A stretch of DNA of 64,000 bases from an uncultured Paenibacillaceae bacterium (GTDB lineage: Bacteria > Bacillota > Bacilli > Paenibacillales > K13): positions 1 to 64,000 of the forward strand of contig CAJXLT010000012.1 of assembly GCA_913056365.1 (NCBI GenBank), given 5' to 3'. Below the pieces are notes generated by a model. That model made no database searches and was not told the origin of the DNA. It saw only the letters and a list, made by a program, of their open reading frames with translations. The translations under genes and the position numbers were made by a program. The first letter of the stretch is position 1, and every line of letters begins with the position of its first letter. This document shows positions 10,112-45,578 of the stretch, piece by piece.

Positions 10112-10903
10112 ATGAAAAAGGTATACGAACCGGACCGCATTCAACAAGAGGTGCCGTTGGAATCAATTCCAGACGAAGTGCGGGCATTGTATCTTCGCCC
10201 AGGCGAGATCATGGCAATTCAGGAGCAATTCCCCGTAGCGTTCCAGCCGCTGGGTACACTGGAGTGGCATGGTCGGCATAACCCGATCGGCGTTGACTCG
10301 ATCAAGGCCGAGCGACTCTGTGAGGAAGCGGCGAATCAGGCAGGCGGGATCGTCATGCCAACGATCCACTTCGCAGCTGACGCTCACTGGGATCGTGGCT
10401 ATGGCTTGGGTCATGGGATGGATGCGGCTGCGGGCTACCAGCTCCCCGGCTCGTATTACCAAATTCCGACCGAGCTCTTGAAACAGTATGTCCTGAACGC
10501 CTGCAGCAATTATCTGCAGCGCGGATTCAAGCTGGTGGTAATGGTGTCTGGTCACAATCCGCCTATTCAGCAGAGCTTGATGGACGAGGTGTGCTACCTG
10601 ATGAAGTCGCCGGATGGTCATGAGCCGGTCTGCTTCGTGATGGATTATACTTTGATAGAAGAAGGGAATCCGCGCCGTAACAGCGATCATGCGGCAGGAG
10701 TCGAGACGAGCATGATGATTCACTTGCAGCCGGATCGTGTTAACATGCAGGCCAATGACGGTCACGAACGTCCCGATCTCGGGCAGCTTGGCTCGTTCCC
10801 TTATCATGAAGCGACTGCCGAGGAAGGCCGCATCCGCTTCGAGCTGCAGGTGGACGGGCTAGCCAAGCTCGCGAGGGAGAGACTGGAGCGGTTGACGAGG
10901 TGA
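10112..10903 (+). CDS. Creatininase-family amidohydrolase
   Basis: 263-residue protein of the creatininase/creatinine amidohydrolase superfamily. Metal-binding signatures are PLGTLEWHGRHNPIGVDSIK (Glu and His of the E-x-H-G motif, then Asp), the VSGHNPP element in place of the usual GHGGN, and SDHAAGVETSMM, equivalent to the D-x-HAG-x-ETS motif with the last metal Glu. The family covers creatininase, mycofactocin MftE and formamidopyrimidine hydrolases, so the true substrate is open. It follows ktrB by 25 bp, but nothing ties it functionally to potassium transport. Confidence 0.82.
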   Translation: MKKVYEPDRIQQEVPLESIPDEVRALYLRPGEIMAIQEQFPVAFQPLGTLEWHGRHNPIGVDSIKAERLCEEAANQAGGIVMPTIHFAADAHWDRGYGLGHGMDAAAGYQLPGSYYQIPTELLKQYVLNACSNYLQRGFKLVVMVSGHNPPIQQSLMDEVCYLMKSPDGHEPVCFVMDYTLIEEGNPRRNSDHAAGVETSMMIHLQPDRVNMQANDGHERPDLGQLGSFPYHEATAEEGRIRFELQVDGLAKLARERLERLTR

Positions 10904-10934
10904 ACGGAGTGGGATATGCAGCGTAATGAAGACT

Positions 10935-10955
10935 GCGGGAAGGCCGCCTTCCCGC
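10935..10955 (+). terminator. GC-rich hairpin after the creatininase gene
   Basis: GCGGGAAGGC immediately followed by CGCCTTCCCGC forms a near-perfect hairpin 31 bp after the stop codon. Only a weak T-rich tail follows (ATGTCTCCCTCTC), so it is a probable, not certain, terminator for ktrAB and the creatininase gene. Confidence 0.6.
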
Positions 10956-11014
10956 ATGTCTCCCTCTCGCTTCCGGTTCTCCTGTGAGAATCGTCTGGAT
11001 ATCATGCGCTAATC

Positions 11015-11330
11015 TCTCACAGCCAGTGGAAGTGTTGTGCCGATTCGTGGGAATCCGCTTGGGCCGAGTGGAATAAACCTACTTAAGCTAGATGAAAGTC
11101 GTGCAGATTCCTGCGAAACCAACTCATGCCCAGTGAATCGCTCGGATTCCTGCGAATATGCAGGTTTTAGCATTTGATGAAGCACATAGTTGATAATTTG
11201 ATGCGAAAATGCATCGTTTTTGCTTAGATCAACCGTATATCGAGTTTTCGTAGTGGAATTCCAGTATTTTCGCAGGCATTCGGCAATAGGGGCTCTGAAT
11301 CGGAGGCAAAGCCTGCATGTTAGCATCTAT
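11015..11330. repeat. Degenerate CCTGCGAA/TGCAGG repeat region, second locus
   Basis: Gene-free stretch after the creatininase gene. It contains ATTCCTGCGAAACC, ATTCCTGCGAATATGCAGG, ATGCGAAAATGCATCG and TATTTTCGCAGGCATTC, in mixed orientation, separated by AT-rich DNA. The same words occur at 3270-3520 and 54995-55250. Nothing else is seen between 10956 and 11408. Confidence 0.55.
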
Positions 11331-15106: not shown

Positions 15107-15301
15107 ACTTGTAGCGGATCGCTTTTGTTTTCATAATCAGCCAGGAAGGGCATGTTAATCAGAATGAGATGAAGATTGGACTATAGGTGTGTTTTTTTCG
15201 CAGACAGTGTGGTTTTCTTAAGTAATTGTGGATGTGCGGCTATGTTCGACATGGGATTGTCTTATAATGAGGCATAACGAATGGAGAAGGGATGAGTGGC
15301 C

Positions 15302-16294
15302 ATGACAACACGAAGGATGGACAAGGTTTTGGTAACGGTGCAGTACCCGCCGCATCATTTCGATAGGATGAGCAAGGTGTTCGCCCCGGCAGAGCTGTTA
15401 GTCGTTGACAAGCATGATGATGAAGCGATGCAAGCTGCACTAGAGGTTGCGGATGCAGCGGTAATCGAAGGTGATTTGGATGAGCGCTTCTGGCAGGCGC
15501 CCAAGATGAAGTGGGTGCATTGTGACCACGCCGGACTGAATGGATCGGCCCGCCCTGAAGTATTCGAGCGAGGGCTGCTCGTCACAGGCTCCTCTGGGCG
15601 TTCTGCTCCAGTGCTTGCTGAACACGTTATGCTGTTCGCGCTGCTTCATGTATACCAATATGCGAATTTCTATGAAGCGCAGAAGAAGCATCAGTGGGGT
15701 GTGCCCGGCTATGAACAGCTACGCGGCTTGTATGGGAAGACGATGGGCATCATCGGTCTTGGCCATACTGGCAAGGAGCTAGCTGTGCGCGCCAGCGCAT
15801 TCGGCATGCGAGTGCTGGGTTACCGGCATAGTGCCGGTTCTCCGCCGCCGAGTGTTGATCAGCTGTATAGCGCTGCGGCTGGCGATTCGCTGGATACACT
15901 GCTGCAGGAGAGCGACATTGTAGCGTTGGCGGTTCCGCTCAGTGACGATACGCACCACCTGATCGGGGAGAAGGAATTGCAGCTGATGAAGCCGACCGCC
16001 TGTTTGATTAATATGGCGCGCGGTGCTGTAGTGGATGAAGCAGCCTTGGTGAAGGCGCTGCATGACGGGGAAATCGGCGGCGCCGGGCTCGACACCTTCG
16101 TCCAAGAGCCGATGCCTGCGGACGACCCGCTGTGGGATGCGCCGAACACGTATATTACGCCGCATTGCACGCCTGCGGTGCCGGATCGGATCGGGCGCTC
16201 GCTCGATGTCATCTGCGAGAATGCTGTACGCTTCCGCGAAGGGCGCGAGCTGCTGAACCTGCTGCGCAAGGAGCAGATGTACACGAAGGGCTGA
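15302..16294 (+). CDS. D-isomer-specific 2-hydroxyacid dehydrogenase
   Basis: 330-residue NAD(P)-dependent dehydrogenase. The Rossmann domain inserted in the middle carries GIIGLGHTGKELA (GxGxxG). Catalytic residues of the family are visible: Arg in NMARGAVVDE, Glu in LDTFVQEPMP and His in YITPHCTPA. This set belongs to D-lactate/glyoxylate/phosphoglycerate dehydrogenase relatives; the absence of an ACT domain argues against SerA. The start could be ATG 15302 or GTG 15296; AGAAGGG lies upstream, and a TATAAT at 15263-15268 is a possible -10 box. A terminator follows at 16343. Confidence 0.88.
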   Translation: MTTRRMDKVLVTVQYPPHHFDRMSKVFAPAELLVVDKHDDEAMQAALEVADAAVIEGDLDERFWQAPKMKWVHCDHAGLNGSARPEVFERGLLVTGSSGRSAPVLAEHVMLFALLHVYQYANFYEAQKKHQWGVPGYEQLRGLYGKTMGIIGLGHTGKELAVRASAFGMRVLGYRHSAGSPPPSVDQLYSAAAGDSLDTLLQESDIVALAVPLSDDTHHLIGEKELQLMKPTACLINMARGAVVDEAALVKALHDGEIGGAGLDTFVQEPMPADDPLWDAPNTYITPHCTPAVPDRIGRSLDVICENAVRFREGRELLNLLRKEQMYTKG

Positions 16295-16342
16295 CGCCGA
16301 GCGGCATGATTGGTACAATATGTACGGGACACGCAGGGATGA

Positions 16343-16374
16343 AGCCTGCCAGATGTGATTCTGGCGGGCTTTTA
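16343..16374 (+). terminator. Intrinsic terminator after the 2-hydroxyacid dehydrogenase
   Basis: AGCCTGCCAGA and TCTGGCGGGCT form an 11-base stem with a short loop, followed by TTTTA. Confidence 0.85.
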
Positions 16375-16420
16375 ATGATTGGCGTGCTTAACGGAGGTGT
16401 CCATCGTTGCTATCTTGTGC

Positions 16421-16609
16421 TCTAACGGAAATCAGAGCCGCTTACAGCCCGTTTTTTGACCAATTGGAATTCTAACGGAAATCTTGCACCCTTAGCGCCG
16501 CTCAGTAGAAGAATTCAACCGCTTTGCTAGTAAATAAGGACCGCTGGCTTCCGTTAGAATGGAAATCTCATCGAAAATGACCTGTAAGCGCCTTAAGTTT
16601 CCGTTAGAA
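16421..16609. repeat. Four-copy TCTAACGGAAAT intergenic element, locus 1
   Basis: TCTAACGGAAAT occurs forward at 16421 and 16471 and reversed (TTCCGTTAGAA) at 16549 and TTTCCGTTAGAA at 16598. The two forward copies are 50 bp apart, as are the two reverse copies, so the whole 190-bp element is an inverted array. The same layout recurs at 48135-48326. No ORF fits. Together with the tandem repeat at 16634 it fills the gene-free stretch 16375-16883. Confidence 0.85.
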
Positions 16610-16633
16610 CTACCCGTGACTAACCAACTGCAG

Positions 16634-16821
16634 CGTACATGGGCAAGAGTCGATGTGGTCAGGAGTATCGGCTAGTTCCACGTACATGGGCAAGAGTCGA
16701 TGTGGTCAGGAGTATCGGCAACTTCCACGTACATGGGCAAGAGTCAATGCCGTCAGAAGTATTGGCTACTTCCACGTACATAGGTTAGAATCGATATAGT
16801 CAGGAGCATTGACAGCCTCCG
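16634..16821. repeat. Four tandem copies of a 47-bp repeat
   Basis: Units start at 16634, 16681, 16728 and 16775 with CGTACATGGGCAAGAGTC, exactly 47 bp apart. Units 1 and 2 are nearly identical, unit 3 has several changes and unit 4 is the most diverged, as expected for an old tandem duplication decaying from the downstream end. It ends about 60 bp before the cysP promoter. 47 is not a multiple of three and no frame is open. Confidence 0.9.
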
Positions 16822-16883
16822 CGTTCACTGGCGAAAGCGGAGGCTTGATCTGGAAGCTACTTGCTTTTTCTGCAAAAAAAGCA

Positions 16884-16913
16884 TTGACGAACGCGGGGCA
16901 AAACCGCTAATAT
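16884..16913 (+). promoter_or_regulatory. SigA-type promoter of the sulfate permease gene
   Basis: TTGACG, an 18-base spacer and TAATAT lie about 70 bp ahead of the cysP start codon; no other gene intervenes. Confidence 0.6.
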
Positions 16914-16981
16914 GAGACAATAACCCATAATTCATACCTTTTTAGTAGGGATTATGTGAGTAAAGAGAGAGCGGGTGGAGT

Positions 16982-18064
16982 ATGACCTATCTGGTTATAG
17001 CGGTTGCGTTGTTTTTTGCTATGAATATTGGTGCTAGCGGTGCCGCAGCCACGATGGGCGTAGCTTATGGGAGCGGAGCGCTGAAGCGCAAGCGTACTGC
17101 ATTGATTCTCGTCGCGATAGGTGTGTTTCTCGGTGCATACTTGGGCGGCGGTGAAGTCGTGAAGACATTGGGGTCGGGCATCATTCCGACTGATCTGCTA
17201 TCGGTTTCCATTGTGTTGATTATACTGATCGGAGCAACAGGGACGTTGTTCCTTGCGAATATGCTGGGCATTCCTTTATCTACGAGTGAGGTAACGGTCG
17301 GATCAGTTGTCGGTGTGGGCGTAGCGTACCAGGTGCTGTATGTCGACAGCCTGCTAGTGATCGTAGCTTTCTGGCTGATCATACCGGTGCTGGCCTTCGG
17401 CATTGCATGGAGTGTAGGGCATTGGATTCGCCGATTGGAGAGGCGCGATGCCCGCTGGCGGGGGCAGGGCAGTCGCGGGTGGCAGAGGATGCTTGTGCTG
17501 CTAGTAATCGGAGCAGGCTTCGTGGAAGCATTCTCTGCGGGGATGAATAACGTGGCGAATGCAATCGGACCGCTCGTAGGGGCGGGCATGATGAGTACCG
17601 GCAATGGGATATTGTGGGGCGGCTTGTTCGTCGCATTGGGTGCCTTGCTGTTAGGTGGTCGTGTGCTGGAGACGAACGGGAAGAAGATTACGCAGATGTC
17701 CCTGCTTCAAGGCACAGCTGTCTCAAGTACAGGCGGATTTCTCGTCATTGTGGCTTCGTTGTTCGGCATTCCTGTTCCATTGACACAAGTAACAACATCA
17801 GCCATTCTAGGCATCGGCTCGGTTAATCATGGTGTAGATATGTGGCAAAAAGGTATTGTGCTGAAAATATTGAAGGTGTGGCTCGTTTCACCGCTATTGT
17901 CGCTTGTTGTTTCCTTCTCCTTAGTGAAGATCTTCGTCGAACCAGAGCCTTATCAAGTTATCGTGATGACGGCAGGCTTGCTCTCACTGATCGGTCTGAA
18001 GAGCTTGTATGACAGCGCACAAGCGGAGAAGCGTGCGACACATGAGGAAGGCGGAGGGATTTGA
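16982..18064 (+). CDS. cysP: CysP-type sulfate permease (PiT family)
   Basis: 360-residue membrane transporter of the inorganic phosphate transporter superfamily. Two repeated half-domains are visible: FFAMNIGASGAAATMGVAYG at the N terminus and FSAGMNNVANAIGPLVGAGM in the second half. The first signature has GASG where phosphate carriers have NDAAN; this matches the B. subtilis sulfate permease CysP rather than PitA-type phosphate transporters. About ten transmembrane helices with a central hydrophilic loop (RRLERRDARWRGQGSRG). GGGTGGAG precedes ATG. No sulfate-assimilation genes adjoin it here, so a phosphate transporter cannot be fully excluded. Confidence 0.8.
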   Translation: MTYLVIAVALFFAMNIGASGAAATMGVAYGSGALKRKRTALILVAIGVFLGAYLGGGEVVKTLGSGIIPTDLLSVSIVLIILIGATGTLFLANMLGIPLSTSEVTVGSVVGVGVAYQVLYVDSLLVIVAFWLIIPVLAFGIAWSVGHWIRRLERRDARWRGQGSRGWQRMLVLLVIGAGFVEAFSAGMNNVANAIGPLVGAGMMSTGNGILWGGLFVALGALLLGGRVLETNGKKITQMSLLQGTAVSSTGGFLVIVASLFGIPVPLTQVTTSAILGIGSVNHGVDMWQKGIVLKILKVWLVSPLLSLVVSFSLVKIFVEPEPYQVIVMTAGLLSLIGLKSLYDSAQAEKRATHEEGGGI

Positions 18065-18118
18065 GCGTTTCGCCGACGGACTTGGTTGCATCTGCGGGAT
18101 TATTTAAGCGAATAGGGG

Positions 18119-18164
18119 GAATTTCTTTGGCAGTTGGGCGAGACTGCAAGGAAATTCTTTTTTT
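18119..18164 (+). terminator. Intrinsic terminator of cysP
   Basis: GAATTTCTTTGGCAGT pairs with ACTGCAAGGAAATTC and is followed by seven T residues, 55 bp after the cysP stop. Confidence 0.88.
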
Positions 18165-18272
18165 ATTGTCATAATAGCTGTATAGAGGTGCGTTTTCGAT
18201 CTCCGCGAAAGTAATCGGAATAAGCTCCGAAGCAGCCCGTCACTTTCGTGGGTACACAAGGGAGGGATACCG

Positions 18273-19361
18273 ATCAAACCAATAAAGTTAAAGCCAACTC
18301 GCGTATGGAGAACCTATGTAGGCGGAGCCATGCTGGAACAGTGGCGCGGTGCGGAACAGCCTATGGACGGACGGTTTCCAGAGGAATGGGTCGCATCTGT
18401 CGTCAACGCTCGCAATCCGGGCAGAGAAGACGTCGTGCAAGAGGGGCTCAGTCTCCGTGAGGATGAGCCGTCACAGACATTGCGTGCGTATATCGAAGCG
18501 AATCCTGAGGAGGCACTTGGCGCCGCGCATGTAGCCAAGCTCGGCTCGCATCCGGGGCTGCTGGTGAAGCTGCTAGACGCTGCAGAGCGGCTGGCCATTC
18601 AAGTGCATCCGGACAAGCTCACTGCCGACAAGCTGTTTCAGTCTGCATACGGGAAGACAGAGGCTTGGTTTTTTCTTGGCGGCAGACGTATTGGCAATGA
18701 AGCACCATACGTATTGTGTGGATTCAAGCCGGGTATGACGCGCGAGAAGTGGGAGAGGCTGTTCCATGCACAGGATATTACAGGCATGGTGGAAGCGCTG
18801 CATAAGGTATACCCGAAGCCCGGTGACGTGATGCTCATTCGCGGCGGTCTTCCACATGCGATCGGTCCGGGCAACTGGATGGTAGAAATTCAGGAGCCAA
18901 CGGATTACACGATTCGCACCGAGCGGAAGACCCCTTCCGGCATGGAACTAGCGGATCATGCTATTCATCAAGGGCTTGGCTTCGATCAGATGTTCGATTG
19001 TTTCCATTACGAGTCAGGAACAGAGGAAGACATGCTGCGGCAGTGCAAGCTGTCTGCGGAGATCAAGGCTAGCGGGCAAGGCTGGCAGATGAAGCAGCTC
19101 ATTCGATATGCGGATACCCCGTACTTCAGCATGGATCAGCTTGAATTAGATGCAGTCTCGCAAGGGCCTGCATGGACGACCGAAGGACGATTCGCTGTCC
19201 TGATCGTATTGGCAGGCAGTGGTACGATTCGCTGTCCTGACGGTGTGCAAGATGTGAACCAAGGAGATCAGCTTTTCATTCCAGCTAGTGTGTCTGCTGT
19301 CGTATTGGAGAGCGGAGACAACTCGCTGCAGATCGTTAGGTGTTTGCCGCCTGAATTGTAG
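18273..19361 (+). CDS. manA: Mannose-6-phosphate isomerase, class I, probable ATC start
   Basis: Cupin-fold isomerase linking mannose 6-phosphate and fructose 6-phosphate. Zinc-site elements are AIQVHPDK (Gln/His), KTEAWFFL (Glu) and GLPHAIGPGNWMVEIQEPTDY (His, then the Arg in YTIRTERKTP). The first ATG in frame is at 18330, but the 19 codons before it read KPIKLKPTRVWRTYVGGA, the conserved N terminus of the family. No ATG, GTG or TTG lies in frame between that stop at 18183 and 18330; GGGAGGG sits six bases ahead of ATC at 18273, so ATC is the likely start (362 residues), barring a sequence error. The gene precedes a GH26 mannanase, consistent with mannan use. Confidence 0.85.
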   Translation: MKPIKLKPTRVWRTYVGGAMLEQWRGAEQPMDGRFPEEWVASVVNARNPGREDVVQEGLSLREDEPSQTLRAYIEANPEEALGAAHVAKLGSHPGLLVKLLDAAERLAIQVHPDKLTADKLFQSAYGKTEAWFFLGGRRIGNEAPYVLCGFKPGMTREKWERLFHAQDITGMVEALHKVYPKPGDVMLIRGGLPHAIGPGNWMVEIQEPTDYTIRTERKTPSGMELADHAIHQGLGFDQMFDCFHYESGTEEDMLRQCKLSAEIKASGQGWQMKQLIRYADTPYFSMDQLELDAVSQGPAWTTEGRFAVLIVLAGSGTIRCPDGVQDVNQGDQLFIPASVSAVVLESGDNSLQIVRCLPPEL

Positions 19362-19382
19362 TGGATACAGATTAGCGCAGTT

Positions 19383-19411
19383 CCCTCATTCCTTATGGAG
19401 TGGGGGTTTTT
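19383..19411 (+). terminator. Probable intrinsic terminator of manA
   Basis: CCTCATTCC and GGAGTGGGG can pair with two G-T pairs around TTAT; TTTTTG follows. Confidence 0.65.
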
Positions 19412-19554
19412 GTTGTGTGAGTAAATGTAGATACATAAATAAAGTTAGTATTTGTTATTGAAATAATAATATTTTTATAATAACATATCAGTACAGGTGC
19501 TAGGGATCCGAGATTTCTATAAGGAAACAGGGATCCTTTTCTACAAGCACTTTA

Positions 19555-19568
19555 TGAAAGCGGTTACG
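19555..19568 (+). promoter_or_regulatory. Catabolite-responsive element (cre) ahead of the mannanase gene
   Basis: TGAAAGCGGTTACG matches the CcpA consensus TGWAANCGNTNWCA at all but the last base. It is about 95 bp upstream of the mannanase ATG, suitable for carbon catabolite control. The rest of the 19412-19660 leader holds no gene. Confidence 0.6.
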
Positions 19569-19660
19569 AATTATTGGAGGAGGTGACTTGTTAGCGGTAA
19601 GCTTTCGTTTTGTTAGGAAGGGCATACTTATCGATCACGTATGAAGAGGAGGATAACAAG

Positions 19661-22600
19661 ATGAGTCGAACTAGAAGATTCCTTGTCATGATGCTTGCAA
19701 TGACACTTATATTCACACTGACTGCTCCGGTGTACGCCGAACGAGCATTTGATGCATCAGACCATTCACAGACTGATAGCCACCCTGGCAAGGGCAAAGG
19801 GAAGGGCAAGCATGAGCTTGATCTTGTCGATGCTAATGCAAGCGTTTACACAAAATCGCTGTTTGCCTATTTGCAAGGCTCGATGGGTGAGCGAGTATTG
19901 TTCGGCCAGCAGCATGTGACGGATGAAGGCTTGACGATTTCTACTACTACCGGTACAGAGTCTGATGTGAAGAATGCAGTAGGTGACTATCCAGCCATAT
20001 TCGGTTGGGATACACTGAGCTTGCAAGGCTATGAGAAGCCGGGATCGCAGGACAATACGGACGAAGAGAACGTGGAAGCCCTCGCAGCCAGTATGATTCA
20101 AGCATATGAGCTGGGCGGGATCGTAACCTTGAGCACGCATCCACGCAATTTCGTAACAGGCGGCGCTTACAATGATACTTCGGTCAGAACGGTTGAGCAT
20201 ATTTTGCCGGGTGGTGCCTACCATGACGAATTGAACGCCTATCTTGATCTGGTTGCAGATTTGGCAGACAGTCTCGTGGACAAGAAGGGCGAGGCTATTC
20301 CACTCATCTTCCGTCCATGGCACGAGCAAAGCGGAAGCTGGTTCTGGTGGGGCGCAGGCACGACCACATCGCAGGAATACATTGCCTTGTATCGCTATAC
20401 GGTTGAATATTTGCGCGATGCGAAGGGTGTCCGCAATTTGCTGTATGCGTGGTCCCCGAATGCTTCCTTCCAAGGCGATGCTGACAAGTACTTGACGACC
20501 TATCCGGGTGATGATTACGTCGACATTCTGGGCATGGACCAGTATGACAACAAGGAAGCCCCAGGCACAGATGCCTTCCTTGGTTCAGTCGCTGAGGATT
20601 TGGGCATGATCGTGAAGCTTGCAGAGGAAAAAGGCAAGATCGCAGCACTCACTGAATTCGGGTTCAGTCCGCAAGGCATGTATCCGGAAGGCAATGCGGA
20701 GCTGGAATGGTTCACGAAGCTGCTCAACGCGATCCAATCCGATCCAGATGCTCGCAAGATTGCTTACATGCAGACATGGGCCAACTTCGGTTATCCGAAT
20801 AACATCTTCGTTCCTTATAGAGATTCCGAAGAGTATGGCTCACACGAGCTGTTGCCGGATTTCGTCGCTTTCTATGAGGATGCTTATTCTGCATTTGCAG
20901 GGGAACTGAAGCATGTCTATTCCAAGCGCAAAAGATTTGTGGCCGAAGAGCAGTCGTTCATGCACATCGCTTCGCCGATCGACCAAAGCACTGTTCGCGA
21001 CAACACTACACTTGTGCGGGCAAGATTGCTGAATATGGAACCGGATCGTGTCGTCTACACGGTCGGTGAATCCGATGCGGAAGTCGAGATGACGCTCGAT
21101 AGGGCAACTGGATATTATACCGCGGAATGGTCACCGCCCGGTGAGGTCAATGGGCATTCCACGACATTGACAGTGAGGGTATACGATAGCGGTGAAGTTA
21201 CTCATGAACAGACGAATACGATCTACGTGCAAGTGGAGGAAATTTTGCTGCATGTCTACACGTTCGATGAAGACATTAGCGGCATTCAGAATAACGGCAC
21301 ATGGCCGGACAGCATGGGACTGGAGCTGTCTCACGGTGAATGGAATGGCGACGGCGTGCTAGAGCTATCGGTTACGGATGTCGATCCGGCGGAAACCTGG
21401 CAGGAATGGAAGTTGGAATTGCCGCAACTGAGCGATGAAGTCGCATTGTCGGCCATCAATCGTGTGAAATTCGATCTGGCAGTGCCGGCCGCAGCTGGCG
21501 AGAGCAATGACAATGCCACGCTGCGTGGTGTAGTGATGCTGCCTCCAGATTGGGAAGAGAAGTACGGGATGACTTCGACAGAAGTGCGGCTAGCTGATCT
21601 TGAAGCTGGAGAAGACGGTTATCTCCGCTATGCTGTCTCCATCGATGTGAACAATATCGAAGCCAGAGAAGCAGCAGAGAGCTTGGCAATCTCCATTGTG
21701 GGCAATGGCATGGAGCTGGCGGAAGGAAACTTGTATGTAGATAATATTGAACTGTACAGCTACTATTATGAACCGCCGGCTGATCCGGCCTTGGTGGACA
21801 ATTTCGAAGGGTATATGGGCAGCGATGAGAAGTTGAACAATGCTTGGACCGTAGCAGGCGATGGCGTCGAGATTGCATTGGACAGCACCCATGCAAGCGA
21901 AGGCAATTATGCGCTTAACTATACGTATACACTTGGCGGACAAGGATATGCGGGCCGCATCACACCGCTTGACAGCGTGGATTGGTCAGGATTCAACAAG
22001 CTTCGCTTCTGGCTTGTTCCAGATGGCAACGACCAACGAATGGTCGTTCAGATCCGAACTGAGGCGGGTCATTATGAGGCATTCCCATCCCTGGCCGGAA
22101 CAGAGGGGCAGTGGGTGGACCTGCACTTCAATGATTTCATTCCTGCATCGTGGGATACTAATCAGGGATCCGTGCTGACCAAGGAAAGCTTGCAAAGTGT
22201 GACACAGTTCGCCATCTATGTGAATGCCGTAGACAGCGCGCAGTTGACTAGCACACTGTATCTGGATGCAATCAAGGCCATTTACGACGAGCAAGCGCCG
22301 ACTGTACCGAACGGAGGCAGCGGTCCGGGAAGCACTCCCGAGCAGGAAGGCTTGCTGTACGGATTTGAGGAAGGTGCAGAGGGTTGGACGGTAGAAGTGA
22401 ATAACGCCTCTGCATCTCCGCCGATCAGCTCTGAAGAAGCGGCGGCTGAAGGTACACGTTCGCTCGCTACAGCTTTCAGTACGGAAGGCAGTGATTTTGA
22501 ACTAACGAAAGTGCAAGCCTTGGATTTGTCTCAGGTAGATACGTTGCTTGCGCAAGTGAAGCTATCTGGCGGTACGGCCAAAGCGACACTCTATGTGAAA

Positions 22601-36140: not shown

Positions 36141-36274
36141 GTGTTGCTATTATTGTACTGCGGCTCAGTTGAAATTTCAATGAATTATTGTTCCGGCGCA
36201 TCTATTGTTTTTGGAGGAAATAGTAGGAATTTGTTCTTCTATGTTGAATGTATTAATCTGACGAGGTGATGCGG

Positions 36275-38908
36275 ATGGACAACCAGAGCCGGCCTGTTCC
36301 TATGTGGAAAAGCTTCATAGCTTTCCTTGCCTGTATCGGATTGGCTGTAGCAGGTCATGCCTATACACTGCCGACTGCTTTCGGATTGGATATGATATTC
36401 TCTGGCATCTTCCTGCTGGCAGCTGTACGAATTCTTGGTGTATGGGCCGGAGCCGGAGCAGCGGCACTAACCGCAGGTATAGTCTATGTGGGAATAACTC
36501 CTAACCCGGTCGTGTTCATGCTAATAATCGAGGTCGTGTTCATCGGTATAGTGACGAACGTAGGCAAGCGGGCAAGTGTATTCGGAGCGAGCTGTCTATA
36601 TTGGATTTTGCTCGGATTGCCTGTGCTGGCAGGGATTCTGTATGGATTCGGCGAACCGGAGCCGCTCGCTACTATTCTCATTCTGGGAAAGAGTGCAGCG
36701 AACGGGCTGTTCAATGCATGGGTGGCGGATATCCTTCTGATCTATGCGCCGATTCAGCGTTGGCTTATCAGGGAAAGGGTGCATAAGTACCCGCTTCGCC
36801 AAATTATGTTCCACATTACGATGGGTGTAGTGATGGTGCCGTTCATGCTCTTTACAGTCATTAGCGGATGGTTCCAATCTAACTCCATTCAGCATCGCAG
36901 TGAAGAGCTGGCAGCAAGTGTTGCGCAGACGTTGCAGTCAGATTTGAGCACATGGAGTAGCATGGACTTGAAGCAGCTGCAGATGGGCGGAGCCGTACAG
37001 ATGGGTAGACTCCACGAGCTGATTCATAATTCGAATGCTACGAATGATTGGATTGTATCGGTAGAGACCCCTTACGGTATCAGGATGAACGGCACGCAGG
37101 TGAATGAGGCAAGCGGTCTCGACGAATGGTATGCAATGGGAAATGTGGAACTACTGGGTGAAGGACTGTACGAATGGACGCCGGGCGATCAGGTGTTGTA
37201 TGCGATACTCTCATGGCGCGAGATGGAGCACATTGTTCAGATGACGTTGGAGCCGATGCCATTCACATTCTATGTGCAAGTCCCGTTGTCAGTCTATATG
37301 CAAGACACACAACAATTTTATGTCATTCAATATGGGGTGATGATTTTATATATTATATTCGGCACATGGGCTACGTCGTTTCTGAGCCACAGTATGAGCC
37401 GCTCGATCTCGGGGCTCGCACATGCGACCATCGATTTGCCGAATAAGTTGAAGCGTCAAGAGTCGATTGATTGGCCGACGAGCAGTCTGCGGGAAATTCA
37501 TCAGCTCATTAGGAATTTCCGCGGCATGGCTGATAACTTATATGGCGCTTTTCAGAAGCAGAAGCAATCGGAGCAAACGTTACATGAGCTGGCTTATTAT
37601 GATGCACTTACAGGTTTGCCTAATCGACGCTCCTTCTCACGAGACTTGTCTAGCCAGCTAGAGGAGGAGAACAGCGAGAAGCAGCAAGCAGCTGTGCTGT
37701 TCATGGACTTGGACCGGTTCAAGCAGATCAACGATTCACTCGGACATTCTGCAGGTGACGAGCTGTTGCAGGGGATTGCCGAGCGCTTGCAGCGAGTAAT
37801 TGCGGATCAAGGCACGGTGTACCGGCTAGGCGGCGATGAATTCACGATTGTGCTCCCACACGTGCAGGAGGAGGAGGTACATGCCTTGGTGCATGAAGTT
37901 CAGCAAGCATGCAAGGAACCGCATGCGATATCAGGTCAAGAACTGCGCACCTTCGTCAGCATCGGCATCAGCATGATCCCGCGGGACGGAACCGATCTGG
38001 ATACGATCGTTCGTCATGCGGATATGGCGATGTACAAGGCGAAGGGTCAAGGAGGCAAGGGCTATGAATTTTACCATGATTCCATCGCACACACGGAAGA
38101 CCGTATGTTGCTTGAGATCGAGCTGCATAAGGCGGCTGCGAATGAGGAGTTCGAGCTCTATTACCAGCCGAAAGTACAGCTCTCCTCGGGGACAGTGACT
38201 GGTGTTGAGGCGTTGATTCGCTGGAATCATGCTGAGCGGGGCGTCGTGCCGCCAGATCAATTCATCCCGCTAGCTGAAGTGACCGGCTTGATCGTGCCTA
38301 TAGGAGAATGGGTGCTCCGGGCAGCTTGCAAACAAGCGAAGCAATGGCACGACCAAGGAATTCTGCCATTGGCGGTATCGGTTAATATCTCAGCGCGCCA
38401 GTTGAGCGGCGATCATCTGGTTCAGACCATTACTCGCATACTGGAGGAGACAGGGCTGCCTCCGTCCAGTTTGGAACTGGAGATTACAGAAGGGTCACTT
38501 ATATGGGACAAGGATATGGCCGTTCATACTTTATCCGTCCTGAAGCACTTAGGCATTCGCATCAGCATTGACGACTTCGGCACCGGATATTCGTCACTGG
38601 GACAGTTGAGACAGCTTCCGATTCATACGATCAAAATTGACAAAGCATTCGTTCGTTCCATTCATAACGACAAGGTGAATGCTGCGATTGTCGAGGCAAT
38701 TATCCGCTTATCCAAAAGCATGGAGCTAGAAATATTGGCAGAAGGGGTAGAAACGCAGGAGGAGCTGAAGAAGCTGCAACAGATCGGTTGTGACTTGATA
38801 CAGGGCTATCTGTTCAGCAAGCCGCTACCAGCAGAAGCATGCCAGTCTCTGTTGGCGGAGGAAGGCGTAGGTGCAGAGGGCAATGCGAAGGGAGGAGGAT
38901 TGTTATGA
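36275..38908 (+). CDS. Membrane-bound GGDEF-EAL c-di-GMP protein
   Basis: 877-residue protein. Five to six N-terminal membrane helices (to about 165), an extracellular sensor segment (about 190-350), a further helix around 360, a short linker, GGDEF domain (motif GGDEF at 519-523) and EAL domain (EALIRW from 645; EITEGS, DDFGTGYSSL, KIDKAFV and EGVET all kept). Both active sites look intact; no RxxD inhibitory site precedes GGDEF. It can therefore in principle make and degrade c-di-GMP. ATG 36275 lies behind GAGGTGA. The stop overlaps the start of a solute-binding lipoprotein (ATGA), suggesting joint production. Confidence 0.92.
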   Translation: MDNQSRPVPMWKSFIAFLACIGLAVAGHAYTLPTAFGLDMIFSGIFLLAAVRILGVWAGAGAAALTAGIVYVGITPNPVVFMLIIEVVFIGIVTNVGKRASVFGASCLYWILLGLPVLAGILYGFGEPEPLATILILGKSAANGLFNAWVADILLIYAPIQRWLIRERVHKYPLRQIMFHITMGVVMVPFMLFTVISGWFQSNSIQHRSEELAASVAQTLQSDLSTWSSMDLKQLQMGGAVQMGRLHELIHNSNATNDWIVSVETPYGIRMNGTQVNEASGLDEWYAMGNVELLGEGLYEWTPGDQVLYAILSWREMEHIVQMTLEPMPFTFYVQVPLSVYMQDTQQFYVIQYGVMILYIIFGTWATSFLSHSMSRSISGLAHATIDLPNKLKRQESIDWPTSSLREIHQLIRNFRGMADNLYGAFQKQKQSEQTLHELAYYDALTGLPNRRSFSRDLSSQLEEENSEKQQAAVLFMDLDRFKQINDSLGHSAGDELLQGIAERLQRVIADQGTVYRLGGDEFTIVLPHVQEEEVHALVHEVQQACKEPHAISGQELRTFVSIGISMIPRDGTDLDTIVRHADMAMYKAKGQGGKGYEFYHDSIAHTEDRMLLEIELHKAAANEEFELYYQPKVQLSSGTVTGVEALIRWNHAERGVVPPDQFIPLAEVTGLIVPIGEWVLRAACKQAKQWHDQGILPLAVSVNISARQLSGDHLVQTITRILEETGLPPSSLELEITEGSLIWDKDMAVHTLSVLKHLGIRISIDDFGTGYSSLGQLRQLPIHTIKIDKAFVRSIHNDKVNAAIVEAIIRLSKSMELEILAEGVETQEELKKLQQIGCDLIQGYLFSKPLPAEACQSLLAEEGVGAEGNAKGGGLL

Positions 38909-41959: not shown

Positions 41960-42021
41960 GATACATATTGTATTAATTAGTGAAAAATGACTTGACAAAG
42001 ATACATAATGTATCATATTCT
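41960..42021 (+). promoter_or_regulatory. Promoter with GATAC-N5-GTATC operators (sites A and B)
   Basis: TTGACA (41992), an 18-base spacer and TATTCT (42016) form a strong promoter. The spacer consists almost wholly of the palindrome GATACATAATGTATC (42000-42014). A second copy with one change, GATACATATTGTATT, lies upstream at 41960-41974. Paired sites, one over the promoter, suggest cooperative repression of the gene at 42188. Confidence 0.8.
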
Positions 42022-42187
42022 TGGGATGAATGTACGGTTTCAAGTACAAATAGTGCCCTTTTTTACATCGACAAAAGAATATAAAATACACCAACGGGTT
42101 TCGACATGTTTTTTGTTGGAACGGCTCTATAATAGAACCAGGCTATAAATATAAACGAATACTAATGGATGGGTGAGGATGATCGTC

Positions 42188-42412
42188 GTGGGAAACCGTA
42201 AAATAACAGTGGACATCCATGATATCATGCATCAAATGGGCATTCCAAGAAATGCGTTCGAAATATTCGGCACGAACAACGGATCTTATCATACGTCGGC
42301 TAATGATCGAATTCAGCAATCTCGAAATTCCGAACAAGAACAACCGCGCAAGGAACCCAGCCGCAAGGAATGGCAAACAGACCCCGTAGAATTGGTGGCA
42401 GCATCTTCCTGA
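42188..42412 (+). CDS. Small hydrophilic protein of unknown function
   Basis: 74 residues if started at GTG 42188 (nine bases after GTGAGG); ATG 42179 is an alternative. The N-terminal third is structured looking (KITVDIHDIMHQMGIPRNAF), the rest highly polar with an E/Q/R/K-rich stretch. No family recognised. It lies behind the operator-containing promoter at 41960-42021 and is convergent with the XRE gene, so it is a likely target of that regulator. Confidence 0.6.
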   Translation: MGNRKITVDIHDIMHQMGIPRNAFEIFGTNNGSYHTSANDRIQQSRNSEQEQPRKEPSRKEWQTDPVELVAASS

Positions 42413-42427
42413 ACGGCTCTGCGTTCG

Positions 42428-42799
42428 TCAATCGTTCATCGATCGTTCAGCTCGTATGAAGGCGATGAATCGCTTTGCTTCTTCCACGGTTAGCTTTCTG
42501 CCGTCAATCGTCAAGTCGAACTGCTCTAGAATCTGCTCATCAGCCAACTCCAATGACTCCTGGAACAACTGAATGCTGGGATCAAGCTTGCTATGCGGAT
42601 CATTCGTACGTCCGAGAATATAATCAATGGACACCTGGAAGTATTCTGCTATCGCCTCAATCGTCTCATAATCAGGTTCTCTGCGATTGTTCTCATAATG
42701 GGATAAGGCGGCACGGGTGATTCCCAGCTTGCTGGAAAACTCTTCTTGCGTTAGATGTCTAGCTCTCCTCAGCTGAGCAATGCGGTGACCACAATTCAT
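42428..42799 (-). CDS. XRE/Cro-family transcriptional regulator
   Basis: 123-residue protein. The N-terminal Cro/C1 helix-turn-helix runs over residues 5-60 (IAQLRRARHLTQEEFSSKLG then ITRAALSHYENNRREPDYET and IEAIAEYFQVSIDYILGR). A C-terminal helical region (about 75-120) probably mediates dimerisation. The start ATG 42799 lies behind CCAGGAGGAGG. Four palindromes of identical layout flank it at 41960, 42000, 42857 and 43319; the third is in its own upstream region. It resembles SinR/Slr or phage repressors in domain size, but no phage gene is near. Confidence 0.9.
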   Translation of the reverse strand: MNCGHRIAQLRRARHLTQEEFSSKLGITRAALSHYENNRREPDYETIEAIAEYFQVSIDYILGRTNDPHSKLDPSIQLFQESLELADEQILEQFDLTIDGRKLTVEEAKRFIAFIRAERSMND

Positions 42800-42849
42800 A
42801 GGAAGACCTCCTCCTGGGAAGGGAAAATTCTGCATGAAAGAAAAAAACG

Positions 42850-42878
42850 CTTGACACGATACGACTTGTATCATACAG
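42850..42878 (+). promoter_or_regulatory. Promoter with GATAC-N5-GTATC operator (site C)
   Basis: TTGACA, 17-base spacer and TACAGT directed rightward; GATACGACTTGTATC at 42857-42871 fills the spacer. It lies between the divergent XRE gene and the 56-residue gene at 43120 and can control both. The rest of 42800-43119 is leader DNA without another convincing gene. Confidence 0.75.
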
Positions 42879-43119
42879 TAACAGTAGGTTATCGTTACGG
42901 TTCGTATCGATTAGAAGCGAAAGTTGTCAAGCATTATGGACTTTGCCATAGTACGGACCTTAACTATTGAACGCTGTTCGTTACTAGGAGCGTACATTCC
43001 TCCCGCACATCTGTCATTATATACTACCGGAAGAGCACCGCGCAACTGGCAGTCGCGTCCACTCGTATTCCTTCTTAGTCACGGACAGATTGGAGAAGAA
43101 CAAAGGAGAGTGAATCAAG

Positions 43120-43290
43120 ATGGAACACTTTTTTTGCTGCAGATGCAGGAGAATTCGGAACCTCCATCCGGGATCACACATATTCCGTACAGGCTTCTAT
43201 CGGGTGCATACACAGCTTGGCAAATGCTTGGAATGTGTCGAAGCAGATCATATTCGTGCAGGGGAGAAGCTTGTCCACATTACGGCGTAA
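43120..43290 (+). CDS. 56-residue zinc-ribbon-like protein
   Basis: Short basic protein with cysteine pairs C6-x2-C9 and C36-x2-C39 (FCCRCRR and KCLECVE), an extra Cys7 and several histidines, the layout of a zinc ribbon. A strong site AAAGGAGAGTGA lies upstream of ATG 43120. It shares the stretch with a longer open frame in another phase that has no site; the strong site and the paired cysteines favour this one. It follows promoter C, so is a probable member of the XRE regulon. No family recognised. Confidence 0.65.
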   Translation: MEHFFCCRCRRIRNLHPGSHIFRTGFYRVHTQLGKCLECVEADHIRAGEKLVHITA

Positions 43291-43307
43291 GCAGGGCAAT
43301 ATTTTTT

Positions 43308-43335
43308 TTGACCGAAGTGATACACTTCGTATCAC
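43308..43335 (+). promoter_or_regulatory. Promoter with GATAC-N5-GTATC operator (site D)
   Basis: TTGACC, 16-base spacer and TATCAC, overlapped by the perfect palindrome GATACACTTCGTATC (43319-43333). The -10 is weak. It precedes the 114-residue gene and the mutase-like gene. Confidence 0.65.
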
Positions 43336-43412
43336 TGGCGAATTCGTCCGAATGATGTCGAGACTATATGGGAGATGCGGCAGATTTTCATGCAGGAAAA
43401 GGGAGGAAGACG

Positions 43413-43757
43413 GTGGTGGACGTTAAGAGAGTGTTATCCTTGGCAGCACTTCGCGAAGTATCTATGCAATCGCGGTTGGATAAGCCCTTAAGTTCAACTG
43501 CTGAGCGATCGGCTGATCGGAAACGTACACATGCAGAAGTAGTTGCGGAACTGTCACTTACGAGTCAAGGTCAACAGCAGAGATCAGCACGTTCGGTAAG
43601 GATGCCTTTGCCCGAACCTGCTTGGAACTACACGATGTTTCAATACGGTACACTTGCATCGGCAGCGGGTCTAGCACAGTTGCAGGCTGTCCGTGCCTAC
43701 CGGAGGTGCGCTGACATAGCAGCCAAATCTGACAGTTCATTCGACCAGTTGGTGTAA
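43413..43757 (+). CDS. Protein of unknown function, 114 residues
   Basis: Starts with GTG 43413 (or GTG 43416) behind GGGAGGAAG; an earlier in-frame ATG at 43368 has no site. The product begins MVDVKRVLSLAALREV, is rich in Ser, Arg, Gln and Ala, and has a more hydrophobic C-terminal part (YTMFQYGTLASAAGLAQLQA). No motif or family recognised, and composition is unlike a membrane protein. It lies between operator D and the mutase-like gene, 24 bp ahead of the latter, so is probably co-transcribed with it. Confidence 0.6.
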   Translation: MVDVKRVLSLAALREVSMQSRLDKPLSSTAERSADRKRTHAEVVAELSLTSQGQQQRSARSVRMPLPEPAWNYTMFQYGTLASAAGLAQLQAVRAYRRCADIAAKSDSSFDQLV

Positions 43758-43781
43758 GCGACACTGGAAAGGATGGTTAGC

Positions 43782-45578
43782 ATGCAGGCAAGTTACCCAA
43801 CAACTAGCGGAATGGCGCAGGAGCGGTATCATCGTTGGACGAGATTTAACCTAATCGAGCCTTGGAAGAGTGATCTTCAACGCATTGAAGATGCAAGCGA
43901 AATCGAAGATCGATTTTATCGGCATCTGGAATTCGGACCAGCTGGATTGCAAGGACAGATTGGGGCAGGCATTAATCGAATGAACACGTATACGATACGC
44001 AGAATGGCAATGGGCTTAGCGTTGTACTTGCGGCGCAGAGGGCTTGCTCATATGAAGCAGGGAGTCGTGATTGCCTACGATAACCGTATGTTCTCCGCGC
44101 ACTTTGCAGAAGAGACCGCGCTAGTGCTAGCAAGGGGTGGGATACCGGTATATCTGTTCGATCGAATGCGTCCCACGCCCATGATGTCATTCGCGGTTAG
44201 AGAGCTGAAGGCTGCGGCAGGTGTATCGATCACAGCGAGCCACAAGGAAGCGAAGTATAATGGTGTGAAGATGTTCGGTGAGAATGGCGCGCACATATCG
44301 CAAAAAACCGCCATCGCCCTGACGCGGAGCATGGAGAGAGTGAATGATGAGCTGCTCGTTGAAGCGATGCGTTTGCAACAGGCAATGCGTAAAGGATACT
44401 TGACCTACATCGGGGAAGAGCTGGAAGAAGGTTATTACCGTCAGCTCGAAACCGTGATCCAAGACGCTACGCTCCTTCCTAGCGCGGGTGACAAGCTGTC
44501 TATCGTATATACACCGCTGCATGGAAGCGGAGGCATTCCCGTGCGTGAAGCCCTGCGGCGTGCAGGGTTCAAGCATGTTCATCGAGTTGAAGCCCAAGAG
44601 AAGCCGGATCCCTATTTCACGACCATAGCGGAGCCGAATCCTGAAGAGACCGAAGTGATGTCCATGGCGCTTGCAGCAGCCAAACAGTCGCGTGCGGATG
44701 TTGTCCTCGGAACAGATGCAGATGTATCTAGTACAGGCGTGACAATTCGAACACGACAAGGGAGTTACGTTCAGCTTACAGGCAACGAGCTTGGCGCATT
44801 GCTGCTCCATTACATGCTTCTACAGAAGCAGAAGAAGCGGCAATTGCCTGCAGACAGCATCCTGCTTAAATCGATTGTAACCTCTGAACTGGGCAGTCGA
44901 ATTGCGGAACAATACGGTGTGAATACGATCCGCACGCTTTTAGGCTTCAAGTATATTGCTGAGAAAGTATTCGAGTATGAGCAGAGCGGTACGGCGACCT
45001 TCTTATTCGGTTATGAGGAGAGTCACGGGTATTTGGCAGGTGCGTTCGTAAGGGATCGAGACGGAATACAAGCATGTCAGCTTATATGTGAGATGTCAGC
45101 CTATTATAAATCTAAGGATCGTACGTTGGATGAGGTGCTGGAGGAGCTGCAGGTCAGGCATGGCTATCATCAAGAAAGCCGCCTCGCTTACAATTGGAAC
45201 GGTCGTGAAGGAAACAGCCGCATGAAGCGTATTATGCGTCAGCTGCGCAAGCAGCCTCTGCCAAGATTAGAAGGCTATCCAGTAGCATGTGTGCATGACT
45301 ACTTATCCAGTGTGACTCACTATGAAGACGGTGCGAGCGATTCGCTGGACATGCCGCGTGCAGATGTAATCAAGGCGGAGCTGCGCGATGGATCATGGTT
45401 CGCTATCTGTCCTTCCGCCACGGAACCGAAGCTCACTGCCTACATTGGCGTAACAGCGAGCACTCGCGTCGATTGCGAGAGTAAGCATGAATCGGTCAGG
45501 CTTGCGGTACAAAGTTGGTTGAAGCAGACGTTCGAGGAAGCGGAGCATCAACGCAAGCGTCGCAAGAACAAAAGATAA
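43782..45578 (+). CDS. Phosphoglucomutase-like protein with degenerate metal loop
   Basis: 598-residue paralogue of PgcA-type phospho-sugar mutases, aligned over the full length. Domain 1 has the catalytic Ser153 in TASHKEAKYNG, though TASHNPPEYNG is usual; sugar-binding GYEESHGYL and phosphate-binding PSATEPK (usually PSGTEPK) are near normal. The metal-binding loop, normally TDPDADRLG, is TDADVSSTG (311-319): the third Asp (316) and the Arg (317) are both Ser. LEFGTGGMRG is LEFGPAGLQG. The protein may be inactive, altered or regulatory. ATG 43782 follows GGAAAGG. It ends the likely XRE-controlled group. Confidence 0.85.
   Translation: MQASYPTTSGMAQERYHRWTRFNLIEPWKSDLQRIEDASEIEDRFYRHLEFGPAGLQGQIGAGINRMNTYTIRRMAMGLALYLRRRGLAHMKQGVVIAYDNRMFSAHFAEETALVLARGGIPVYLFDRMRPTPMMSFAVRELKAAAGVSITASHKEAKYNGVKMFGENGAHISQKTAIALTRSMERVNDELLVEAMRLQQAMRKGYLTYIGEELEEGYYRQLETVIQDATLLPSAGDKLSIVYTPLHGSGGIPVREALRRAGFKHVHRVEAQEKPDPYFTTIAEPNPEETEVMSMALAAAKQSRADVVLGTDADVSSTGVTIRTRQGSYVQLTGNELGALLLHYMLLQKQKKRQLPADSILLKSIVTSELGSRIAEQYGVNTIRTLLGFKYIAEKVFEYEQSGTATFLFGYEESHGYLAGAFVRDRDGIQACQLICEMSAYYKSKDRTLDEVLEELQVRHGYHQESRLAYNWNGREGNSRMKRIMRQLRKQPLPRLEGYPVACVHDYLSSVTHYEDGASDSLDMPRADVIKAELRDGSWFAICPSATEPKLTAYIGVTASTRVDCESKHESVRLAVQSWLKQTFEEAEHQRKRRKNKR

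Follow-up and report, generated by a model that had tools for sequence, protein, structure and literature searches.

An XRE regulator and a palindrome of the form GATAC-N5-GTATC are linked across the order Paenibacillales, and the main output of the system that they form appears, from sequence comparison, to be the synthesis of exopolysaccharide (EPS). We put the probability that a repressor, this operator and EPS genes make up the core of the explanation at roughly 0.8. The regulator is encoded on the minus strand at 42428–42799 of the window, by which we mean the whole stretch of 64,000 nucleotides that was analysed. It is a protein of 123 residues with a Cro/C1-type HTH (residues 1–64; Pfam HTH_3, E=1.1e-18) and a C-terminal domain (residues 77–122) as well conserved as the HTH, and its AlphaFold model has a pLDDT of 89.

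Exact copies of the palindrome, GATACNNNNNGTATC, begin at 42000, 42858 and 43319, and single-mismatch copies at 41960 and 42894. The original prediction had named all of these (the second exact site as 42857) except the last, which it missed. Upstream of a small-protein gene described below, the exact operator GATACATAATGTATC (42000–42014) sits in the −35/−10 spacer of a rightward promoter, with a perfect TTGACA at −8 (41992–41997, plus strand) and a −10-like hexamer at 42014–42020; the one-mismatch copy GATACATATTGTATT (41960–41974) lies 40 bp away and has a one-mismatch counterpart in G001, the only same-genus genome. The exact operator GATACGACTTGTATC (42858–42872), 59 bp ahead of the start codon of XRE, likewise occupies a rightward-promoter spacer, here of 17 bases between a perfect TTGACA at −7 (42851–42856, plus strand) and a −10-like TACAGT (42874–42879). 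Another operator, GTTACGGTTCGTATC (42894–42908, one mismatch), is likewise upstream of the XRE gene, 36 bp from the one at 42858, and is identical in G001. The third exact pattern match, GATACACTTCGTATC (43319–43333), has a −35-like TTGACC before it (43308–43313, plus strand) and belongs to a weaker promoter, so that all three exact sites do lie between −35 and −10 boxes on the plus strand, as had been proposed. Counting up to one mismatch, the window holds seven palindromes against 1.5 expected from shuffled windows, and no shuffle reached seven.

A search of the genome for the palindrome, with a check for overlap with promoters, had been called for. The 4.65-Mb genome from which the window comes contains 15 exact palindromes, compared with three matches to a reversed control pattern. 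Six are intragenic and all of these have a G+C-rich centre; the other nine are at promoters and have AT-rich or mixed centres. Three of the nine are those of the window, three lie upstream of wzz, and one precedes a sugar transferase in a polysaccharide cluster; of the remaining two, one heads a cluster of lasso-peptide-like type and the other precedes a paralog of XRE that consists of the HTH only.

Comparative genomics gives the link between regulator and palindrome strong support, from 79 loci and 151 genomes. The loci were independent named XRE loci of 20 kb each from Paenibacillus and Cohnella. When all 5-base inverted repeats with spacings of 0–12 were counted in the 400 bp upstream of the 79 XRE genes, the top repeat was GATAC with a spacing of 5, present at 55 loci; the best unrelated repeat reached 11, and shuffles at most 4. 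Allowing one mismatch, 70 of the 79 loci have the palindrome upstream of XRE. The loci hold 196 exact palindromes in total, against a mean of 2.5 over the 1024 possible half-sites and none for the reversed control, and the consensus of the palindrome centre is R-W-W-W-Y. Chance occurrence is rejected by the window shuffles, the reversed control in the genome, the inverted-repeat count and the half-site controls in the named loci.

Close orthologs of the regulator (57–90% identity) occur in most families of Paenibacillales, and 102 of 151 genomes of the order carry a match at E<=1e-40; when 300 genomes were sampled across the class, Paenibacillales was the only order with matches at this threshold. 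Across the 151 genomes, the refined site GATACRWWWYGTATC occurs 6.65 times per genome with XRE, 0.47 times without it and 0.17 times where there is only a distant homolog, counts in which related species are not independent, yet the contrast is also seen between genera of one family. One XRE-bearing genome (G114), for example, has eight refined sites and its XRE-lacking congeners have none or one. Three genomes with a strong XRE match have no refined site.

The genes around the regulator are metabolic and EPS genes. All four targets of the original prediction exist, the “114-residue” one being an open reading frame of 114–129 residues (43368–43757, plus strand) of which only the C-terminal 46 residues are conserved in G001. 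Upstream of it, a 56-residue CxxC zinc-ribbon-like protein (43120–43290, plus strand) weakly resembles DUF3973 in Pfam, at E=0.022 in the window and 1.8e-4 for the G001 ortholog, neither of which reaches the curated cut-off. Downstream lies a protein of the phosphoglucomutase/phosphomannomutase family (43773–45578, plus strand; PGM_PMM_I, E=9.5e-34, plus domains II and III), which would supply sugar-1-phosphate and so fits a role in EPS precursor formation. The comparison of gene order in relatives that had been called for finds genes and palindromes syntenic in G001: the order DUF2062, small protein, XRE, 56-residue protein, 114-residue reading frame and phosphoglucomutase is kept, and so is every palindrome, with arms nearly unchanged and, in two of the three exact sites, an altered centre. 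The window also encodes a large protein in whose translation GGDEF and EAL motifs are visible (36266–38908), some 3.5 kb ahead of the XRE region.

The evidence for an EPS output comes from the window's own genome (G000) and from its relatives. In the former, palindromes front a wzz-cpsD-galU operon on a contig other than that of XRE, in a cluster with Pfam matches to Wzz, AAA_31 (CpsD type), NTP_transferase, UDP-glucose dehydrogenase (UGDH) and Bac_transf. These sites before the eps operon (contig G000:C2), together with conservation throughout the order, overturn the earlier view of a compact local system, and a purely local one is rejected. Among the 79 loci, 47 have wzz, cpsD, cpsB, galU or an initiating sugar transferase within 10 kb of XRE. 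In 11 XRE-bearing genomes the 600 bp upstream of wzz contain palindromes, and in four of these (G000, G001, G010, G039) the eps operon is unlinked to XRE and on another contig; in three more (G032, G034, G036) the operon head is cpsB or another gene, and the palindromes are found there. In the six XRE-lacking genomes examined, and in G025, which has only a distant XRE homolog, wzz has no palindrome upstream. Six XRE-bearing genomes (G005, G006, G014, G018, G024, G031) lack a site immediately upstream of the best match to wzz. The output, formerly described as uncharacterised, can be replaced by EPS synthesis and a conserved small protein.

Other genes behind palindromes have Pfam matches to PilZ and LytR-CpsA-Psr (LCP). 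PilZ-domain proteins are encoded directly behind palindromes beside XRE at about 25 loci (L073:8973-9395 and 24 others, grouped by clustering, with a Pfam test of one member); this hints at a link to c-di-GMP, the level of which could be set for PilZ proteins by the GGDEF/EAL-motif protein of the window. The lasso-peptide-like cluster in the eps region (L052:8323-9549 and 15144-19974, L053:336-350), with a palindrome at its head, contains genes for asparagine synthase, transglutaminase-like and PqqD-like proteins, and short peptides are found behind palindromes in other loci. At seven named loci, a 172-residue tyrosine recombinase of the phage-integrase family (Pfam E=3.1e-22) is encoded behind palindromes adjoining XRE (L063:9022-9540; L093, L096, L112, L114 and L117 near 10500-11250); it might invert a promoter.

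The second conserved partner of the regulator is the small protein. The predicted gene for a 74-residue protein exists, but its length depends on the start: the open reading frame spans 42173–42412 and gives 74–79 residues, namely 77 from ATG 42179 (42179–42412, plus strand, convergent with XRE; HMM E=2.4e-11) and 74 from GTG 42188. Changes between the window and G001 copies number 18, 20 and 34 at the three codon positions, which fits a coding gene. A profile built from 13 seeds collected 113 members, present in 72 of the 79 loci; they share the core xIxLDIRxILxQLGIxxxKW (its R also given as x) and have a variable, hydrophilic tail. A palindrome lies upstream of 37% of the members and of 8.9% of other open reading frames of the same size. 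At 46 of the 79 loci, in the pattern to which the window belongs, a copy is convergent with the XRE gene and directly behind it. The profile matches in 90 of the 102 XRE-bearing genomes and in none of the 49 others, although all seeds came from XRE loci and very divergent relatives elsewhere could escape it. The structural model has a two-helix core (pLDDT about 80–90) and a disordered tail.

What this protein does is suggested by two known systems. Among solved proteins, the closest to the regulator by sequence and fold is the repressor of phage Phi106 in complex with AimX (PDB 9sf2, 9iaq), to which it is homologous over its full length, C-terminal domain included (9sf2_A profile, E=2.2e-16, residues 2–120); in a Foldseek search the Phi106 repressor–AimX entries took ranks 1–4 and SinR–SinI rank 7. 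The Phi106 repressor is antagonised by a small protein, and that system is a prophage whereas the present one is chromosomal. SinR/SinI of Bacillus subtilis follows the logic proposed here, an XRE repressor of eps operons with a small-protein gene, and SinR has an HTH fold similar to that of the window protein (1b0n, 3zkc). SinR recognises a GTTCTYT-type operator. In contrast, the conserved operator here is GATACRWWWYGTATC, the small protein has no SinI domain match, and the XRE system has more than one target class and an order-specific distribution. Because an obligate small protein adjoins a repressor of the AimX-bound type, it may be an antirepressor working like SinI or AimX, a proposal by analogy that we hold tentatively, at somewhat under even odds. 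Homology to either is rejected: the small protein has no Pfam or NCBIfam family, none of 34 members matched the Sin-type Pfam models, no PDB chain (AimX included) was matched at E<0.4, and a fold search with the low-confidence model returned no structural match. The idea that it mimics the sequence of the XRE C-terminal segment, for which an alignment by eye looked good, was also dropped, as hmmsearch and hhalign found no similarity between the two proteins.

Nearly as good as an even bet is a different role for the small protein, with XRE and operator acting as proposed: it would be a co-regulated output, for instance one that regulates the polysaccharide machinery or a step involving c-di-GMP and PilZ. 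Such a role would suit its lack of similarity to SinI, AimX and XRE, the several paralogs per genome that stand first behind palindromic promoters in different places, and the variable tails, which look fitted to different partners. It would also suit a second copy in the window's own genome, near the eps cluster and without an upstream palindrome (G000:C2:501836-501979; L181:5836-5979). However, the small protein tracks XRE and not eps operons, being absent from wzz-bearing genomes without XRE, and its frequent convergent position directly behind the XRE gene also speaks against a mere output.

That the regulator represses is inferred because the palindromes sit in −35/−10 spacers, where polymerase must sit. 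Of the 196 sites, 71, about a third, have a TTGACA-like hexamer whose first base lies 7–8 bases ahead of the palindrome, an arrangement in which the 17-bp spacer is filled by the 15 bp of the operator; pairs of promoter-like hexamers average 0.78 per site, compared with 0.17 for each control window. Paired sites are frequent, 22 or 30–38 bp apart, those of the window being spaced by 36 and 40 bp. This placement is a repressor architecture and points to direct binding, repression and autoregulation. XRE could instead be an activator or dual regulator of EPS genes, given that some sites lie outside promoter spacers (about two thirds are not exactly in a recognisable one) and that paired upstream sites exist; we consider this improbable in view of the sharp TTGACA peak at −7/−8 from the palindrome, as in phage repressor operators.

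The operator itself is already known from phages. The published operator consensus of PBSX Xre, a Cro/C1 HTH repressor, is GATACATTTTGTATC (as cited in PMC4243335), an exact instance of the window motif. PBSX Xre controls prophage lysis genes, whereas the window XRE belongs to the core chromosome throughout an order and appears to control EPS genes. Among 413 phage records that match the window protein, the best identity, 39%, is concentrated in the HTH and belongs to the repressor gp33 of Listeria phage A500. Its repressor–Cro region (L182:1114-1456) carries five GATAC palindromes, four of them exact and the main group 28–34 bp apart; gp33 differs in being a phage immunity gene with a C-terminal part not clearly similar to that of XRE. 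The palindrome was absent from the other matching phages examined (Lily, A403 and Paisley). Since the operator matches the PBSX Xre consensus and also occurs at the A500 repressor, XRE and its operator are likely a domesticated phage-type repressor pair.

No phage genes were found around the window site, the XRE loci or the eps operon, and with metabolic and EPS neighbours, synteny in G001 and presence in 102 of 151 genomes the regulator shows neither a prophage location nor control of phage genes; a resident prophage is rejected on the basis of these phage-free loci. The claim that there is no phage or SinR context stands for the neighbourhood and fails for the operator, which is of the PBSX/A500 phage type, and for the output, which is SinR-like. 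The HTH-only paralog mentioned above (70 residues; G000:C2:563712-563927, L054:15713-15925) is 49% identical to the window XRE, is preceded at about 110 bp by an exact palindrome of its own, and is possibly a Cro-like counterpart on the same operators; similar matches of 64–72 residues occur in many related genomes. It is highly improbable that the window XRE is incidental and that the palindromes serve this paralog, or repressors of resident prophages, as operators: that paralog's palindrome and the use of the same palindrome by phage repressors would allow it, but the palindromes cluster around full-length XRE in the 79 loci and disappear in genomes without it, many XRE genomes have no such paralog or only a weak match to it, and phage genes are missing around both the window site and the eps operon.

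In the mechanism that we favour, XRE would be an order-wide, chromosomal, phage-type (Cro/C1) repressor of EPS genes. It would bind GATAC-R-WWW-Y-GTATC in the form of a dimer or a larger oligomer, often at two sites 22 or 30–38 bp apart. Seated between −35 and −10, it would block RNA polymerase at its own promoter and at the adjacent small-protein promoter, and likewise where the eps operon (wzz-cpsD-galU-sugar transferase) begins, with PilZ, LCP and phosphoglucomutase genes as accessory targets. In a weaker step, the small protein might bind the C-terminal domain of XRE, as in AimX–Phi106 repressor and SinI–SinR, and its own derepression could then produce a switch-like on-state and matrix production. 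The fullest version of this account, i.e. a single domestication in Paenibacillales that yielded a bistable EPS master switch with an obligate, hitherto unnamed antirepressor family (>110 members) and a Cro-like HTH-only paralog, is possible, though we would sooner expect parts of it to fail.

A search of the available literature found no XRE regulator of Paenibacillus EPS and no description of how matrix production is switched on in Paenibacillus and relatives; a study of P. polymyxa EPS mentions SinR of Bacillus as the only model (PMC7911366), and the main text of a catalogue of XRE motifs (PMC12565409) does not print the motif. XRE factors shared by host and phage are reported to control adhesin development in Caulobacter and phage phiCbK (PMC10688885), in a different phylum and by a different system. 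Although the operator was known, the order-wide EPS regulon and the dedicated small-protein family were not found in the literature searched.

In conclusion, the analysis supplies a defined regulator, an operator, a target list and a candidate switch protein for Paenibacillus and its relatives, among them bacteria that promote plant growth and others that produce polysaccharides for industry. The system would be a clear case of a phage-type repressor–operator pair serving cell physiology and, if the proposal is true, a domesticated switch equivalent to SinR/SinI and built from different parts.
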